From positions 2,572,001-2,636,000 of the forward strand of contig NZ_CP133781.1 in the NCBI RefSeq assembly GCF_034350045.1: a stretch of 64,000 nucleotides of DNA, given 5' to 3'. This document shows, piece by piece, positions 38,363 through 44,923 of this stretch. The notes under the pieces are model-generated. The model worked only from the letters and a program-made list of their open reading frames with translations, was not told the origin of the DNA and searched no databases. The translations under genes were made by a program, and so were the position numbers. How positions within the stretch are numbered: position 1 is the first letter of the stretch; the number at the start of each line of letters is the position of its first letter. Source of the DNA: Pseudomonas sp. CCI4.2. GTDB taxonomy: Bacteria > Pseudomonadota > Gammaproteobacteria > Pseudomonadales > Pseudomonadaceae.

Positions 38363-39001
38363 TCAATCGTCAGACGTTTTTGCCTTGAATTCGCACAGAT
38401 CTTCGATCCTGCAACTGCCACAGCGGGGCTTGCGGGCCTGGCAGACATAGCGTCCGTGAAGGATCAGCCAATGATGGGCGTCGAGCAGGAAATCTTTAGG
38501 CACAAATTTCATTAGCTGCCTCTCTACTTCAACGACATTTTTGCCCGGCGCTATGCCGGTGCGATTGCTCACCCGGAAAATATGCGTGTCCACGGCCATG
38601 GTCAATTGGCGAAAGGCAGTATTGAGCACTACGTTTGCCGTTTTACGACCTACGCCCGGCAGCGCTTCAAGTTCTTCCCGAGTCTGAGGTACTTGGCTGT
38701 GGTGTCGTTCCACCAGAAGGCGGCAGGTCTCGATGACGTTTTTAGCTTTGGCGTTGTAAAGACCAATGGTTTTTATGTAATCGCAAAGCCCGGCAACCCC
38801 TAGGTCGTAAATAGCTTGTGGGGTGTTTGCCACCGGGTAAAGACGTGCAGTGGCCTTGTTGACGCTGACATCAGTCGCTTGGGCCGAGAGAATCACGGAA
38901 ATCAATAATTCAAAAGACGAGCTATAAGCCAGCTCTGTTTTAGGTTCCGGGGTGTCTTCCCGCAGGCGACGGAAAATTTCCAGGCGTTTTGCGGCGTTCA
39001 T
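38363..39001 (-). CDS. nth: Endonuclease III (Nth)
   Basis: A 212-residue bifunctional DNA glycosylase/AP lyase for oxidised pyrimidines. The helix-hairpin-helix LPGVGRKTANVVLN carries the catalytic lysine, and the aspartate is in AVDTHIFRV. The C-terminal 4Fe-4S loop is CQARKPRCGSCRIEDLC. The start overlaps the rnfE-like stop by 4 bases, so it is the last gene of the rnf-like operon, as in E. coli rsx-nth. Confidence 0.97.
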   Translation of the reverse strand: MNAAKRLEIFRRLREDTPEPKTELAYSSSFELLISVILSAQATDVSVNKATARLYPVANTPQAIYDLGVAGLCDYIKTIGLYNAKAKNVIETCRLLVERHHSQVPQTREELEALPGVGRKTANVVLNTAFRQLTMAVDTHIFRVSNRTGIAPGKNVVEVERQLMKFVPKDFLLDAHHWLILHGRYVCQARKPRCGSCRIEDLCEFKAKTSDD

Positions 39002-39666
39002 GGGTGCAGCGTTTCCTTGGCGGTGGAGGATTGATTGGTGTTCTCGGCACCGGCCGGTCGGATTTTAATCCGCCTATCAGCCCGGTAATTGTTCGCGGCA
39101 AGAAGCAATCCCAAGAGGATTAACCCGCCAGGGGTCAGCAGCGCCAAGTGGGCGCCCTCCGGCAGCATCTGTATCTCCCAGTGCGTTGCGCGAGCACCGA
39201 ATAGCCACTGAGCGTGGCTGAACAGTGTGCCGTTGCCCAAGAACTCACGGAACAGGGCGAGTACCACCATCAAGGCACTGAATCGAGCGATCAGAGGGCG
39301 ACCGCGGCGCAGCACGTCCACGGCAGTGCGTGAGTCGTTGCTCAGCACGCAATAAATGCCTAACAAAGGAAGGTAAATCCCCAACCCTTGATAAAGGGCC
39401 AATGCATACGCTTGTAGTACCAGCTCAGAACAGCTGACAAGCGAAGCAGCTAGCAACGCGCTGGCGAGGAGTTCGGCGCTGGGCGTCAATAGTTGGCGTA
39501 TCCGTGCAATCAGCACGGCGTGCACGCCAACAACGACCCACAGCACCATCAGCAACCCCAGTGCCAGGGCAAAAGAGTCGGTAACGCCCAGAAGGGGCGT
39601 CAAGCTCAGGGGGCCGAGCAGGGCATGAATACAAGGTCGATTAACCTGTTGCACGGGATGAGTCAT
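38998..39666 (-). CDS. rnfE: RnfE-like membrane subunit
   Basis: A 222-residue RnfE/NqrD-type membrane protein with about six helices. LQAYALALYQGLGIYLPLLGIYC and REFLGNGTLFSHAQWLFG are family signatures. The conserved cysteine in the first half (LGLCPLL in true RnfE) is Thr here (LSLTPLLGV), whereas the second (IYC) remains. The C-terminus is a polar tail. It overlaps rnfG and nth by 4 bases each. In Rnf, RnfA and RnfE together hold an intramembrane 2Fe-2S cluster; here most of its ligands are missing. Confidence 0.85.
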   Translation of the reverse strand: MTHPVQQVNRPCIHALLGPLSLTPLLGVTDSFALALGLLMVLWVVVGVHAVLIARIRQLLTPSAELLASALLAASLVSCSELVLQAYALALYQGLGIYLPLLGIYCVLSNDSRTAVDVLRRGRPLIARFSALMVVLALFREFLGNGTLFSHAQWLFGARATHWEIQMLPEGAHLALLTPGGLILLGLLLAANNYRADRRIKIRPAGAENTNQSSTAKETLHP

Positions 39667-40286
39667 GGGGGCGTACCCGACGGGAGCGCCATGAGTAGTG
39701 CCCGATAAGCGTCGAAGAAACGCAATGTGCTACGAATGGCGCCGACGGTTGCCCGAGAGGTGATGGTCGCGCCAGCGATTTGGTCGAAGTCGCCGTGATC
39801 TTTCGTTAATGCCCATTCTGACTCGGGAGGATCAGTGAGAGAGCGGCCGATAAAACGCTTGAGCCAGGCCGGTTCAGTCACGAGGCGGGCGCCAATGCCG
39901 GGGGTCTCGTTGTGCTTGAGGACTTTGACGCCGAGCAACTGGCCGTCTATCGACACGGCGATCAGTAACTCGATGGGGGCAGAATAACCTTGAGCCTGGC
40001 TATGAAACAGAACCGCACTGGGCTTGCCCCCTTTCGTCGCAAGATAACCGGCGATCACTGCATGGGTGTCGGCGGTGCGCTCAGGCAGCGACAGCGGGTG
40101 TTGTAACGGTTGATTATCGTAACTGTCAGGAGGCATAACCGATAAAAAGGCTTGAGCTTGAGCCGCCTCCTGCGCCGCACTGATTTGCAGTGCTGCCGCT
40201 TGCTGCAGCGCGATCGTCAGCCCAATGCCCAAACCCGCAAGCAAGACGATAACTAACGCGCTTAACCATCTCGCCTGCTTGGTCAT
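39663..40286 (-). CDS. rnfG: RnfG-like FMN-binding subunit
   Basis: A 207-residue protein with one N-terminal membrane helix (WLSALVIVLLAGLGIGLTIAL) and a periplasmic FMN-binding domain. The covalent flavin motif is DQIAGATITSRATVG; the acceptor threonine is retained, though the preceding Ser of SGAT is Ala. GVKVLKHNETPGIGARLV is a second signature. Starts with the 4-base overlap to rnfD. Expected to carry a phosphoester-linked FMN in the periplasm. Confidence 0.88.
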   Translation of the reverse strand: MTKQARWLSALVIVLLAGLGIGLTIALQQAAALQISAAQEAAQAQAFLSVMPPDSYDNQPLQHPLSLPERTADTHAVIAGYLATKGGKPSAVLFHSQAQGYSAPIELLIAVSIDGQLLGVKVLKHNETPGIGARLVTEPAWLKRFIGRSLTDPPESEWALTKDHGDFDQIAGATITSRATVGAIRSTLRFFDAYRALLMALPSGTPP

Positions 40287-41320
40287 GGCGTGGCTCCCGT
40301 TTTTTTTGTCTCGCTGTCGGGCTTCGAGCGTTCCAGGCGCTCCAAAGTGGGGACGGCCAGATTCATGAGCAGTACTGCAAACGCGACGCCGTCGGGGTAG
40401 CTGCCCCATGTGCGAATCAGGTAAGTGATTACCCCCACCCCAATCCCGAACAGCAACCGCGCACGCGGACTTTTGGGGCCGGACACGGGTTCGGTCACGA
40501 TAAAAAATGCGCCGAGCATGCTCGCACCGGTCAGCAGATGGAACAGCGGCGACCCGTGAGAGTCAGAGCCTGAACCGTTCCAGCACAGCAGGCTGATAAT
40601 AAACAGGCTGCCCAACATTCCCACGGGTGCGTGCCACGTAAACACGCGTTGCCGAAGCAGGAAGGCGCCGCCGGCTAAGAACCCCAGATTGAGCCACTCG
40701 GCACCCCGGCCCCCGAATCGGCCAAACGATGGATTACTGGCAAACAACTCCTCAACAGTGAGGCTTTTATTGATCCGCAATGCATCCAGTGCTGTGGCTT
40801 GGGCCCACGCATCGGGCGGTGCTGCCAAACCAAGGTTCACACCGAAGATCTGTTGCAGGCCGCCCAATAGATTCAGGCCGTGTGGGGCTGGCCAGTGGCT
40901 CATGTGCTGGGGAAAAGACACCAGCGCCATCGCGTAGCCGAGCATGGCCGGATTAAACGGATTTTTACCGATTCCGCCGAACAGATGCTTGCCGAACAGT
41001 AGGGCAAAACCGGTCGCCACCAGCGTCAACCACCACGGTGAATACGGCGGGAGAGCAAGCGCCAGGAGGGTGGCGCTGACCAGCGCACTGCCGTCGCTTA
41101 AGCTCGGCTTGAGCGGCAGCTGGCGCAATGTAAGCACCGCGGCTTCCACGGCCAGCGCCATGCTCGCGGCCAGGAGCCAGCTGATCACGATTCCCCAACC
41201 GTAAAACCATAGCAACGTCAGCGCCCCGGGTAACGTCGCGAGTAATACCAGCGTCATGGTTTTCTGCAGGCCGTCGCTGACCTTCTCGACGGTGTCGGGC
41301 AAGGCTTCAGGCGTTGGCAT
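40283..41320 (-). CDS. rnfD: RnfD-like FMN-binding membrane subunit
   Basis: A 345-residue membrane protein of the RnfD/NqrB family with about ten helices. [20 protein letters not shown] and [21 protein letters not shown] are signatures. The flavin-attachment threonine is retained in [10 protein letters not shown]. The start MPTPEALPD lies inside the end of rnfB (14-base overlap), so there is no room for rnfC, which normally sits between rnfB and rnfD. The N-terminal ~25 residues are cytoplasmic. Confidence 0.9.
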
Positions 41321-42173
41321 GCGCGCTGACCTGGGTGTGTGCCTGGGCCGCAGATTCAAGAAAAATCAGGGTTTGCTCGGCGGCTTCGAACTCGCGCTGC
41401 AACACCACCAGTTGTTCTTGTTGTTCCCGGGTAGGTGGGTGACCAAAGGCTTTTAACGATTTATTTAATTGTGCGCGGCTCATCGCCAGGGCGATCTTGG
41501 CTTTTTTCAGCGCCTGATCAGTGGCCGCTGCTTTTTGCGCACGTATTCGTTCAATGGCGGACTGCACCGGGCTCGGTACTGTTTCCTGGGCTGCACTCAC
41601 CTGAGCCGTGCGCTGCACACGCGCCAGACGTTCGGCTTGGCGCTGCTCTTCTTCGCGGCGCAATCGATCATTTCGCACTTCGAAGCGGCGGCGGGCGTGG
41701 TCGCGTTTTATGCGCCGAGCCTGTTGCTGTTTATCGCTAACGGCCAAGCCGCCCACAACAGGCACTACCCCGGAAAGCGGCAGTGGGTGCATTTCGATGC
41801 AGTCCACCGGACACGGAGCTACGCACAAATCGCAACCGGTGCATTCATTAATGATTACGGTGTGCATCAGCTTCGCCGCGCCGAGGATAGCGTCCACCGG
41901 ACAAGCCTGAATGCATTTGGTACAGCCAATGCATTCCGCTTCCCGGATAAACGCAATCTGCGCCGGTGCCGGGCCGCGCTCAAGGTCCAATTGCACCACT
42001 GGAACGTTCAGTAGCCGAGCAAGCGAGGCAATGGTTTCGTCGCCACCGGGTGGACATTTGTTGATGGCTTCACCGCTGGCGATGCCTTCGGCGTAGGGCT
42101 TGCAACCGGGATGGCCGCACTTGCCGCATTGCGTTTGTGGCAGCAGCACATCAATAGTTTGGATCAGGTTCAT
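41307..42173 (-). CDS. rnfB: RnfB-like iron-sulfur subunit, anchorless and with a coiled-coil tail
   Basis: A 288-residue protein. It opens directly with the 4Fe-4S domain ([26 protein letters not shown]), lacking the N-terminal membrane helix of usual RnfB. Two ferredoxin clusters follow ([16 protein letters not shown] and [18 protein letters not shown]), with all cysteines present. From about 145 to the end is a long Arg/Gln/Ala/Glu-rich helical extension, roughly half the protein, resembling the tails more often seen on RnfC. Starts by ATGA overlap with rnfA. Confidence 0.88.
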
Positions 42174-42757
42174 GGCTTGATCAGCCCGCTGAAACCAAGA
42201 AAAGCCAGGCCCATCAAACCCGCGCTGATTAACTGGATCGGTAAGGCACGAAAAGGCAACGGGACGTCCTGGGTTTGAATCCGTTGTTGAAGATCATGAA
42301 ACAGGCTCAAAACCAGCCAAAATCCCAACCCCGAGCCGATGCTCAGCGCCAGCGCGTAGAGCATGCCCTTGTCGGGCTGAGTGCTTAACAACGCAAGCCC
42401 GAGGATACCGGCGTTGCTCACTAGCAGCAGTTGAAATCCGTCGAACGACAACCGGGGGAACAGTCGCGATAGCGCTGACACGCAGGGCTTTATCGCCATT
42501 ACGCTGACTGGCAGGAATACGAACAACCTTAGATACCCCAGTTCCAACGGCACCAGTACCGAGTGGTACAGCAGGTAGTTGAGCAGCGTGCTGCAAAACA
42601 TCACCCAGACGGTCGCCATCCCCAGCGCATGAAGTTGCACCCGAGTAATACAGGGTTCGCGGCTGGTATTGATTACGGGATCGACGCCCAACGGCCACTG
42701 CAATACAACGTTATTGATCAGGGCAGCGCTGATGAGCGTGAGAATGAAATCGGTCAT
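42170..42757 (-). CDS. rnfA: RnfA-like membrane subunit lacking cluster cysteines
   Basis: A 195-residue RnfA/NqrE-type protein with six helices ([55 protein letters not shown] and so on; ending [19 protein letters not shown]). The two cysteines that bind the RnfA/RnfE 2Fe-2S cluster are replaced: LGLCPFMG becomes LGVDPVIN and TTNCAVLG becomes VSNAGILG. It is the first gene of the operon, following a gap with the metG terminator. Confidence 0.86.
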
Positions 42758-42880: not shown

Positions 42881-44923
42881 TTACTTGATTCGTTGCCCCG
42901 GCTTGGCGCCGCTGTCCGGGCTGAGCAGGTAGATTTCTTCGCCGCCAAGCCCAGCGGCCATCACCATGCCTTCAGAAATGCCGAAGCGCATTTTGCGTGG
43001 CTTGAGGTTGGCAATCATCATCGTCAGGCGCCCTTCCAGTTCAGTCGGATTCGGGTAGGCGCTCTTGATGCCGGAGAAGACATTGCGTTGTTCGTCGCCA
43101 ATGTCCAAGGTCAAACGCAGCAGCTTGTCAGCGCCTTCAACGTGTTCAGCCTTGAGAATCAGGGCCACTCGAAGGTCCACAGCGGCGAACGCATCAAAGT
43201 CGATTTCGGCGGCCAGCGGCTCTTTGACCAACTCACCGTTGCCTTGCGGCGCAACCGAGGTATCGCTGGCAGTCAGGTCTTCTTTCGAGGCGTCGCTCAT
43301 GGCTTGTACTTTTACCGGATCGATTCGGGTCATCAGCGGCAGGAACGGGTTGAGCTGATGATTACTCAGCAGCGTCAGGTGATCGTCCCAGGTCAGCGGC
43401 GCGACGTTGAGGAATTTCTCAGCATCGGCAGCCAACAGCGGTAGTACCGGCTTGAGGAAAATCACCAGTTGGCGGAACAGATTGATGCCCAAGGCGCAAA
43501 CGGCCTGGACTTCATCTTGTTTGCCTTCTTGCTTGGCCAGTGACCACGGCGCTTTGTCGGCGATATAGGCGTTGGCGCGATCGGCAAGGCCCATGATTTC
43601 GCGCATGGCCCTGGCAAAGTCCCGCGCTTCATACGCTTCAGCAATGCAGGGCGCGGCTGCGAGAAACGCTTCGGTCAGTTCCGGCGCGGCGTTGCCTGCA
43701 ACCAGCACGCCTGCGTTGCCCTTATGAATGAAACCGGCGCAGCGGCTGGCAATGTTGACCACTTTGCCGATCAGGTCCGAGTTGACCTTCTGTACGAAGT
43801 CTTCAAGGTTCAGGTCCAGGTCATCGACGCCACGGCTGAGCTTGGCCGCGTAGTAATAGCGCAGGTATTCCGGCGGCAGGTTGTCCAGATACGTGCGGGC
43901 TTTGATGAACGTCCCGCGGGATTTCGACATTTTCTGGCCATTAACGGTCAGGTAGCCGTGGACATTGATCCCGGTTGGCTTACGCAAACCCGCGCCTTCA
44001 AGCATGGCCGGCCAGAACAGGGCGTGGAAGTTGACGATGTCCTTGCCAATGAAATGGTACAGCTCAGTGGTGGAATCCTTGGCCCAATAGGCGTCGAAGT
44101 CCAGATCAGGGCGGCGTGCGCAGAGATTCTTGAAACTGGCCATGTAGCCAATCGGCGCGTCTAGCCACACGTAGAAGTATTTGCCTGGTTCGCCTGGAAT
44201 TTCGAAACCGAAATACGGTGCATCGCGGGAGATGTCCCACTGTTGAAGTCCTGCATCCAGCCATTCGGAAATTTTGTTCGCAACGGCCTCTTGTAGCGTG
44301 CCACTGCGAGTCCAGCTTTTCAGCATGGCGTCGAAGTCGGGCAGATTGAAGAAAAAGTGCTGCGACTCTTTCAGAACCGGCGTGGCCCCGGAAATGGCCG
44401 ATTTCGGATTTTTCAGGTCAGTTGGCGCGTAGGTCGCACCGCATTTTTCGCAGTTGTCGCCGTATTGATCTTCAGTGCCACACTTTGGGCACGTGCCCTT
44501 GATGAAGCGATCGGCCAGGAACATCAGTTTTTCCGGGTCGAAATACTGGGTGATCGAGCGCGTGGCGATGTGCCCGGCATCACGCAGTCGGGTGTAGATC
44601 ATGCTCGACAGCTCGCGGTTTTCGTCCGAGTGCGTCGAGTGAAAATTATCGAAGTCCACTAGGAAGTCGGCAAAGTCGGCGCTGTGTTCAGCCTTAACGT
44701 TGGCGATCAGTTGTTCCGGGGTGATCCCTTCTTTTTCAGCACGCAGCATGATTGCCGAGCCGTGAGCGTCGTCCGCGCAGACATAGATGCACTGATTGCC
44801 GCGATGCTTTTGGAAGCGCACCCACATATCGGTCTGGATGTACTCAAGCATATGGCCAAGGTGAATTGAACCATTGGCATAGGGCAGGGCGCTGGTGACG
44901 AGAATCTTGCGTGGCTCGGACAT
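42881..44923 (-). CDS. metG: Methionyl-tRNA synthetase
   Basis: A 680-residue class I synthetase. The HIGH motif is HLGH in [12 protein letters not shown], and KMSKSRGT is intact. A four-cysteine zinc knuckle ([17 protein letters not shown]) and a C-terminal tRNA-binding (EMAP-II/Arc1p-like) domain from about 575 are present, so it is the long dimeric form. Divergent from mrp/apbC. Confidence 0.97.

Follow-up and report, generated by a model that had tools for sequence, protein, structure and literature searches.

A Genus-Wide Rnf Variant in Pseudomonas without RnfC and with Three of Four Intramembrane [2Fe-2S] Ligands Replaced

The Rnf complex (RnfABCDGE or RsxABCDGE), a ferredoxin:NAD+ oxidoreductase whose activity is coupled to Na+/H+ transport, contains a [2Fe-2S] cluster held by RnfA and RnfE which, according to a 2025 review (PMC12174285), takes part in electron transfer to RnfG. 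The invariant ligands described for Clostridium tetanomorphum are RnfA Cys25 and Cys113 and RnfE Cys26 and Cys109 (Vitt et al., PMC9588780). RnfC is the module for NAD+, FMN and two [4Fe-4S] clusters. The pumping models presented in the review begin with the reduction of this cluster, and in the solved complexes that it describes RnfD carries a riboflavin towards the cytoplasm and its flavin mononucleotide (FMN) towards the periplasm. An Rnf-like operon was found in a stretch of 64,000 nucleotides from Pseudomonas sp. CCI4.2 (contig NZ_CP133781.1, positions 2,572,001 to 2,636,000 of the forward strand; this whole stretch is called the window below), which belongs to a genome of 5,565,001 bases (5.57 Mb) on a single contig. 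The operon resembles the known complex in the order of A, B, D, G and E before nth, in the threonines for covalent FMN, in the RnfB cysteines and in ApbE (two genes in this genome), and differs from it in having no RnfC, no RnfB helix and no RseC match, and in the loss of three of the four ligands and of an RnfA glutamate. Another difference is that RnfB is missing from 16 of 112 related rnfC-less loci.

The Na+-translocating NADH:quinone oxidoreductase (Na+-NQR, NqrABCDEF) shares a homologous core (NqrB, NqrC, NqrD and NqrE), ApbE and the four cysteine places, whereas in the window operon the cysteines are lost, an RnfB-type ferredoxin is present and NqrF and NqrA are absent, TIGR01937 to TIGR01940 scoring far below cut-off for the operon proteins. 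In the Nqr/Rnf-like systems described by Meheust et al. 2021 (PMC8238504) and in a 2024 preprint (PMC10979944), primarily from Actinobacteria and candidate phyla, NqrB/RnfD (PF03116) is fused to a NAD-binding domain (PF00175), lacks the NqrB/RnfD flavinylation threonine and is accompanied by a G-like subunit. As presented in those sources, they have in common with the Pseudomonas form a proposed one-way flavin path made of the RnfD/NqrB and RnfG/NqrC half only; unlike them, the Pseudomonas form keeps RnfA and RnfE, retains the RnfD threonine and has no NAD domain (in the window the RnfD model covers residues 17–334 of 346 translated, with no NAD-binding C-terminal domain). The window RnfB scores best with the soluble RnfB/RsxB encoded beside nth (PRK06991; NF005415, its best NCBIfam model, 248.9 bits, cut-off 281), but it is encoded together with A, D, G and E in one operon. 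No report of such an rnfC-less, ligand-poor Rnf was recognised in the literature, searched mostly at the level of titles and the beginnings of abstracts.

Residues were placed by alignment to E. coli K-12 RsxA and RsxE together with solved chains, those of C. tetanomorphum, Acetobacterium woodii, Azotobacter vinelandii and Vibrio cholerae for RnfA/NqrE, and those of A. vinelandii and C. tetanomorphum for RnfE. Asp26 and Ala116 of the window RnfA were located at the Cys25 and Cys113 sites of C. tetanomorphum, and Thr23 of RnfE at the Cys26 site, in agreement with an earlier reading made from the DNA alone (the sequence-only reading), which had proposed Asp and Ala for Cys in RnfA and Thr for one Cys in RnfE. 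Three of the four intramembrane ligands are replaced in the window, and the fourth is kept as RnfE Cys106. Shifted but intact cysteines were ruled out at the sequence level, the motifs being aligned to the solved chains without gaps. AlphaFold models of RnfA (mean predicted local distance difference test score 68) and RnfE (74) were of modest confidence, with shallow alignments, and were used for fold identity only; their best PDB matches were RnfA and RnfE chains.

A survey of 199 genomes, all of the one genus Pseudomonas and sampled evenly from a larger group, gave an RnfA-like match in 144, RnfB at E < 1e-10 in 173 and an RnfD match in 140. Of these RnfD matches, 137 were counted as Rnf-type, and three weak ones of NqrB level (G001, G147 and G164; E 2e-20 to 3e-12) were set aside. 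A full Rnf is present at the locus in 24 of the 137 genomes, and the other 113, the window included, are rnfC-less there; 62 genomes are without Rnf-type RnfD. RnfB and RnfD were found together in 121 genomes, RnfD only in 16, RnfB only in 52 and neither in 10 (by subtraction). The 120 loci fetched comprised 112 rnfC-less and 8 full ones. RnfA and RnfE were each alignable in 111 of the 112, RnfA being missing at a contig end in L099 and RnfE giving no match in L111, and all five genes are present in 95 of the 112.

Cys at RnfA 26, RnfA 114 and RnfE 26 (E. coli numbers) was found in all 8 full loci and in none of the 111 rnfC-less ones, three of which have a gap at RnfA 26. In the L099 genome RnfA lies on another contig (L264) and likewise has neither cysteine. 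For the other 16 full-Rnf genomes a pattern check found each of the four cysteine motifs and showed the N-terminus of RnfB to be hydrophobic; the four cysteines are thus present in 24 of 24 full loci. The alignment confirmed the co-occurrence of cysteine loss and rnfC loss across Pseudomonas expected from the sequence-only reading, and, since the same substitutions recur across the genus, they are not attributable to chance. RnfA position 26 is Asp in 87 of the 111 loci and Gln, Ala, Glu, Gly, Thr, Asn, Pro or a gap in the other 24. RnfA Glu89, which is aligned with Glu95 of V. cholerae NqrE, a residue presumably important in the uptake of Na+, is retained by none of the 111. Other cysteines exist in RnfA, the commonest column being Cys in 50 of the 111 rows. 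These data indicate that the rnfC-less, ligand-poor Rnf is, at the level of sequence, a genus-wide variant, in which the RnfA/RnfE electron bridge appears to be gone and the RnfD/RnfG flavin path appears to be kept.

The same organization was seen in a scan of named genomes with a query derived from rnfC-less RnfA, and hence biased to this form: rnfC was found in 0 of the best 80 of 250 relatives, all of them Pseudomonas (P. fluorescens, P. frederiksbergensis, P. mandelii, P. migulae, P. jessenii, P. gingeri, P. brassicacearum and others), and A, B, D, G and E plus nth in 79 of these 80. The remaining relative (L139) is represented by a short contig that carries A, B and D.

The absence of rnfC from the window operon, claimed by the sequence-only reading, was confirmed, and in a genome-wide search with the TIGR01945 profile no rnfC passed the cut-off (best E 7e-15). 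A weak match of at least this kind occurs in every one of the 199 genomes, and the matches listed at about this strength span about positions 76–278 of the 435 in the profile. The sole PF13375 match in the genome was rejected as RnfC, its translation reading as a biotin-domain carboxylase. RnfC over cut-off was found in 30 of the 199 genomes. Six of the 113 genomes that are rnfC-less at the locus have it elsewhere (G021, G022, G057, G072, G093 and G103), and in G057, G093, G103 and G072 it is accompanied by D only (L241, L242, L244 and L245). A separate locus in which rnfC adjoins a divergent rnfD, with no A, B, G or E match in 16 kb, was observed in five Pseudomonas genomes (L241–L245). In addition to its rnfC-less main locus, G022 carries another Rnf that is complete and has its cysteines intact (L138, L246); we assume that such an extra Rnf could be nif-linked.

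A metG homologue was found in 109 of the 112 rnfC-less and in 5 of the 8 full stretches, which marks them as the same locus. This one locus shows four states: ABCDGE, ABDGE, ADGE and B alone. In a FastTree tree of RnfD alone (122 rows, many forks open) the rnfC-less form needs one change, its nearest group is the full Rnf of the genus, and the absence of rnfB needs four losses, at least three of which are forced by well-supported branches. A single origin of the rnfC-less form would be the simplest reading of this tree. The operon descends from Rnf but lies outside the working definition of Rnf.

The ratio of nonsynonymous to synonymous substitution rates (dN/dS) was determined for closely related rnfC-less loci taken in pairs (108 to 115 per gene, L120 left out). 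The medians were 0.025 for Nth, 0.098 for RnfD, 0.105 for RnfB, 0.203 for RnfG, 0.216 for RnfE and 0.228 for RnfA; those of the full loci (12 pairs) were 0.072 for RnfB, 0.091 for RnfA, 0.162 for RnfE, 0.178 for RnfD and 0.252 for RnfG. Purifying selection maintains all the subunits, and in RnfA it is relaxed or redirected. Median identity among the rnfC-less loci was 0.53 for RnfA and 0.39 for RnfE, as compared with 0.92 and 0.78 among the 8 full loci. In L120 the genes rnfB, rnfD and nth are split over several frames, owing either to assembly error or to real decay.

The flavin-attachment threonines of RnfD and RnfG, which the sequence-only reading had described as kept, were located by alignment in the window. 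The RnfD residue is Thr in 111 of the 112 rnfC-less loci (Ser in one) and that of RnfG in 109 (Ser in three). When positions that do not vary between E. coli and the 8 full loci were scored as kept if at least 90% of rnfC-less loci retained them, 83 of 137 were kept in RnfD and 34 of 70 in RnfG, against 22 of 126 in RnfA and 13 of 88 in RnfE. RnfD Asp289 (E. coli) is replaced by Glu in 111 of 112 rnfC-less loci. In 14 of the 16 loci without rnfB, Pro instead of Ala precedes the FMN threonine of RnfD.

Of the 14 cysteine positions of E. coli RnfB, 13 hold Cys in 95 of 96 rows, and the remaining row is gapped; the fourteenth (E. coli Cys66) is missing from full Rnf as well. Between the stop of rnfA and the first Cys codon of rnfB lie 41–65 nucleotides in 94 of 95 rnfC-less loci (217 in the exception, L096) and 140 in 8 of 8 full ones, and the TIGR01944 match of the window RnfB starts at profile position 36. 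The membrane anchor of RnfB is thus lost in the rnfC-less form. The A-D-G-E loci without rnfB are L089, L090, L100, L103–L111 and L113–L116, with no RnfE match in L111. Conversely, rnfB occurs without Rnf-type rnfD in 52 of the 199 genomes (by subtraction), and all 20 such loci opened (L219–L238) were arranged as metG-rnfB-nth and gave no match to A, D, G or E, rnfB being always beside nth. Because of these 16 loci and 52 genomes, RnfB need not be the electron donor.

Outside the genus, a class sample of 274 genomes gave RnfC over cut-off in 158 and an RnfD match in 180. Seven of them, found by reading the two lists, have a strong RnfD (E < 1e-50) and no strong RnfC, and all were opened. Contig ends lie near rnfD or inside rnfC in three (L130, L132 and L136), and in two (L131 and L133) rnfD and rnfG stand as a pair, the fetched stretch giving no match to A, B, C or E. 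The last two, L134 and L135 (G291 and G412, from one genus of the sample), have the order A-B-D-G-E-nth and weak genome matches to TIGR01945 (E about 1e-24). No rnfC lies between B and D in these two, yet the RnfA/RnfE cysteine motifs and the RnfB helix are kept; that rnfC loss alone causes cysteine loss as a general rule is thereby ruled out. The cysteine-less form was found in none of the class loci opened; middling matches (e.g., G308, G333 and G425) lie outside that set.

A second co-loss concerns RseC. PF04246 gave no match in the window's own genome and matched in 25 of the 199 Pseudomonas genomes, namely all 24 with full Rnf and the rnfC-less G123 (1 of 175 others). Among 65 consecutive class genomes (G199–G263), in which the presence of RnfC was judged by a threshold set for this analysis, it matched in 35 of 35 with RnfC and in 1 of 30 without. 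In 15 hand-picked genomes RseC was over cut-off in G291, G412, G431, G351, G360, G413 and G419, absent in G415, G264, G470, G341, G369, G454 and G425, and represented in G374 by a match below cut-off with a stop. G291 and G412 have RseC and no operon rnfC and keep the cysteines and the RnfB helix, so that in these two genomes RseC accompanies the cysteines and not an operon RnfC. Several genomes depart from this rule: G255, the one match among the 30, holds five stops and has no RnfC over the threshold; G022, whose second, complete Rnf has intact cysteines, gives no PF04246 match; G264 has an RnfC match (E 1.4e-87) and no RseC; G123 is rnfC-less yet has RseC; and G431 has RseC with only D and G in the fetched stretch (L133). 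The N-terminal domain of RseC is described as able to carry an oxygen-sensitive Fe-S cluster, and RseC as interacting with RsxB and RsxD (PMC11729352); in Clostridium ljungdahlii it was required for autotrophy and read as a regulator (PMC9124969). In NQR, NqrM seems needed for inserting the matching cluster, according to the 2025 review (PMC12174285). The co-loss suggests that RseC may serve the RnfA/E cluster.

We propose, with confidence no better than evenly balanced, that the Pseudomonas form is a half-Rnf, a non-pumping flavin wire running through RnfD and RnfG between the cytoplasmic side and the periplasm. An ancestral rnfABCDGE-nth at the metG locus would have lost rnfC, the RnfB anchor, three ligands and RseC on the branch leading to the rnfC-less Pseudomonas. 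With the ligands, RnfC and the anchor lost, the first of the two Rnf electron paths, which leads from RnfB to RnfG by way of the RnfA/E cluster, would be broken. The second path, from riboflavin in RnfD to FMN in RnfD and on to FMN in RnfG, with ApbE as flavin transferase, would be kept. Electrons would most likely run outwards to a periplasmic acceptor, RnfA and RnfE would persist as a remodelled scaffold, and soluble RnfB would be one usable but replaceable cytoplasmic donor to RnfD. The absence of a [2Fe-2S] cluster and of pumping, the use of the RnfD and RnfG flavins as the working path, the outward direction and the scaffold role are all deduced from the comparison of sequences. The sequence-only reading had suggested a flavin-only, RnfC-independent complex; RnfC-independence and the loss of cluster ligands were supported, and "flavin-only" fits the membrane core of D, G, A and E but not RnfB, which keeps 13 conserved cysteines.

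Several observations weigh against the half-Rnf proposal. Of the three pumping models that the review shows, two route Na+ through RnfD/NqrB (PMC12174285); since RnfD is the best kept subunit and its conserved acidic residues mostly stay in the rnfC-less loci, the absence of pumping rests on the lost cluster. Cys at RnfE 109 (E. coli number) is found in 107 of 111 rnfC-less as well as in 8 of 8 full loci, and RnfA and RnfE, kept and constrained as they are, may do more than serve as a scaffold. Among the window genes adjoining the operon, none was recognised as encoding a periplasmic acceptor. The distribution of ApbE, which is present in all 137 genomes that have Rnf-type RnfD and in 13 of the 62 others, speaks for the proposal, but the comparison is not corrected for kinship.

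The dispensability of RnfB could also be accommodated if RnfD exchanged electrons with the quinone pool near its riboflavin, like NqrB, RnfB being unrelated to the membrane part. NqrB is described as handing electrons from riboflavin to ubiquinone (PMC12174285), and both the 16 loci without rnfB and the 52 genomes with rnfB and no Rnf-type rnfD fit such a scheme. We consider it unlikely, however: the NqrB quinone site uses two N-terminal amphipathic helices that the same review describes as absent from RnfD generally, and rnfB stays with rnfD in 97 of 113 genomes. The conserved RnfE Cys would be explained if Cys106, RnfA Asp26 and other residues bound a single metal or a different cluster, with electrons or ions continuing to cross RnfA/RnfE and the complex still being a form of Rnf pump. 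Asp26, the conservation of RnfE Cys79 of the window (Cys in 101 of 111 rnfC-less and 8 of 8 full loci) and the new near-invariant RnfA residues Trp147, Asp155 and Pro173, which differ from full Rnf (each in 110 of 111), agree with a remodelled site of this kind. The variation or gap at RnfA 26 in 24 loci in which the RnfE Cys mostly stays, the loss in all 111 of the glutamate aligned with NqrE Glu95 and the absence of RseC make it slightly less probable again than the quinone link.

E. coli RsxABCDGE, with RseC and ApbE, reduces SoxR (PMC11729352, PMC12174285), and a system for reducing SoxR or Fe-S proteins, with soluble RnfB as the working end and a membrane part that keeps RnfB reduced, would account for the 20 of 20 opened metG-rnfB-nth loci in which rnfB lies beside nth in the absence of A, D, G and E. 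Such a role is improbable here, given that RnfC, the RseC belonging to such a system and a cluster path to RnfB are all missing and that 16 loci keep the membrane part without rnfB. Finally, the operon could be a decaying remnant without function, as might be thought from the faster evolution of RnfA and RnfE, the repeated further losses, the 62 genomes without Rnf-type RnfD and the split frames of L120. With median dN/dS of 0.10 to 0.23 over up to 115 close pairs, five genes present in 95 of 112 loci and ApbE in all 137 genomes, we give this explanation very little credence.

The features of the operon are collected in Table 1. The order rnfA-B-D-G-E-nth with overlapping genes, all on the minus strand, and the 14-base rnfB/rnfD overlap, in which the rnfD ATG lies inside the end of rnfB, were as the sequence-only reading had given them. 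RnfB (TIGR01944), RnfD (TIGR01946) and RnfG (TIGR01947) passed the NCBIfam cut-offs; RnfA (TIGR01943, 109.7 against 229.3 bits) and RnfE (TIGR01948, 78 against 213.4 bits) remained far under theirs. The upstream gene is one that we take to be metG from its translation.

Table 1. Features of the rnfC-less operon and its upstream neighbour, in window positions.
Feature	Position	Strand	Remark
rnfA	42170..42757	-	195 aa, without both [2Fe-2S] cysteines
RnfA Asp26 codon	42680..42682	-	site of first ligand Cys (25 or 26), by alignment
RnfA Ala116 codon	42410..42412	-	site of second ligand Cys (113 or 114), by alignment
rnfB	41307..42173	-	288 aa, no N-terminal membrane helix, cluster cysteines kept
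rnfD	40283..41320	-	345 aa, directly after rnfB, no rnfC between
RnfD covalent-FMN Thr codon	40793..40795	-	motif DAWAQAT
rnfG	39663..40286	-	207 aa
RnfG Thr174 covalent-FMN codon	39765..39767	-	motif DQIAGATIT
rnfE	38998..39666	-	222 aa, keeps one of two cluster cysteines
RnfE Thr23 codon	39598..39600	-	site of ligand Cys26
RnfE Cys106 codon	39349..39351	-	retained ligand (Cys109)
nth, endonuclease III	38363..39001	-	last gene of conserved block
metG, upstream neighbour marking the locus	42881..44923	-	

Since RnfC is absent, operons of this kind named rnf or rsx should not be read as encoding a ferredoxin:NAD+ oxidoreductase. More tentatively than the half-Rnf proposal itself, it may be suggested that an all-flavin transmembrane electron wire has arisen from an ion pump in Pseudomonas, with no Fe-S cluster in the RnfADGE of species without rnfB, and that RseC could, like NqrM in NQR, insert or repair the intramembrane [2Fe-2S] cluster and not only regulate transcription. 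With few exceptions, RseC accompanies the form of Rnf that bears the cluster. A large natural group without three of the ligands sets the two electron paths of Rnf apart and suggests that the RnfD/RnfG half can persist where the pump half is gone, and the variant offers a genetic handle on the separate roles of RnfA/E, RnfB and RseC.

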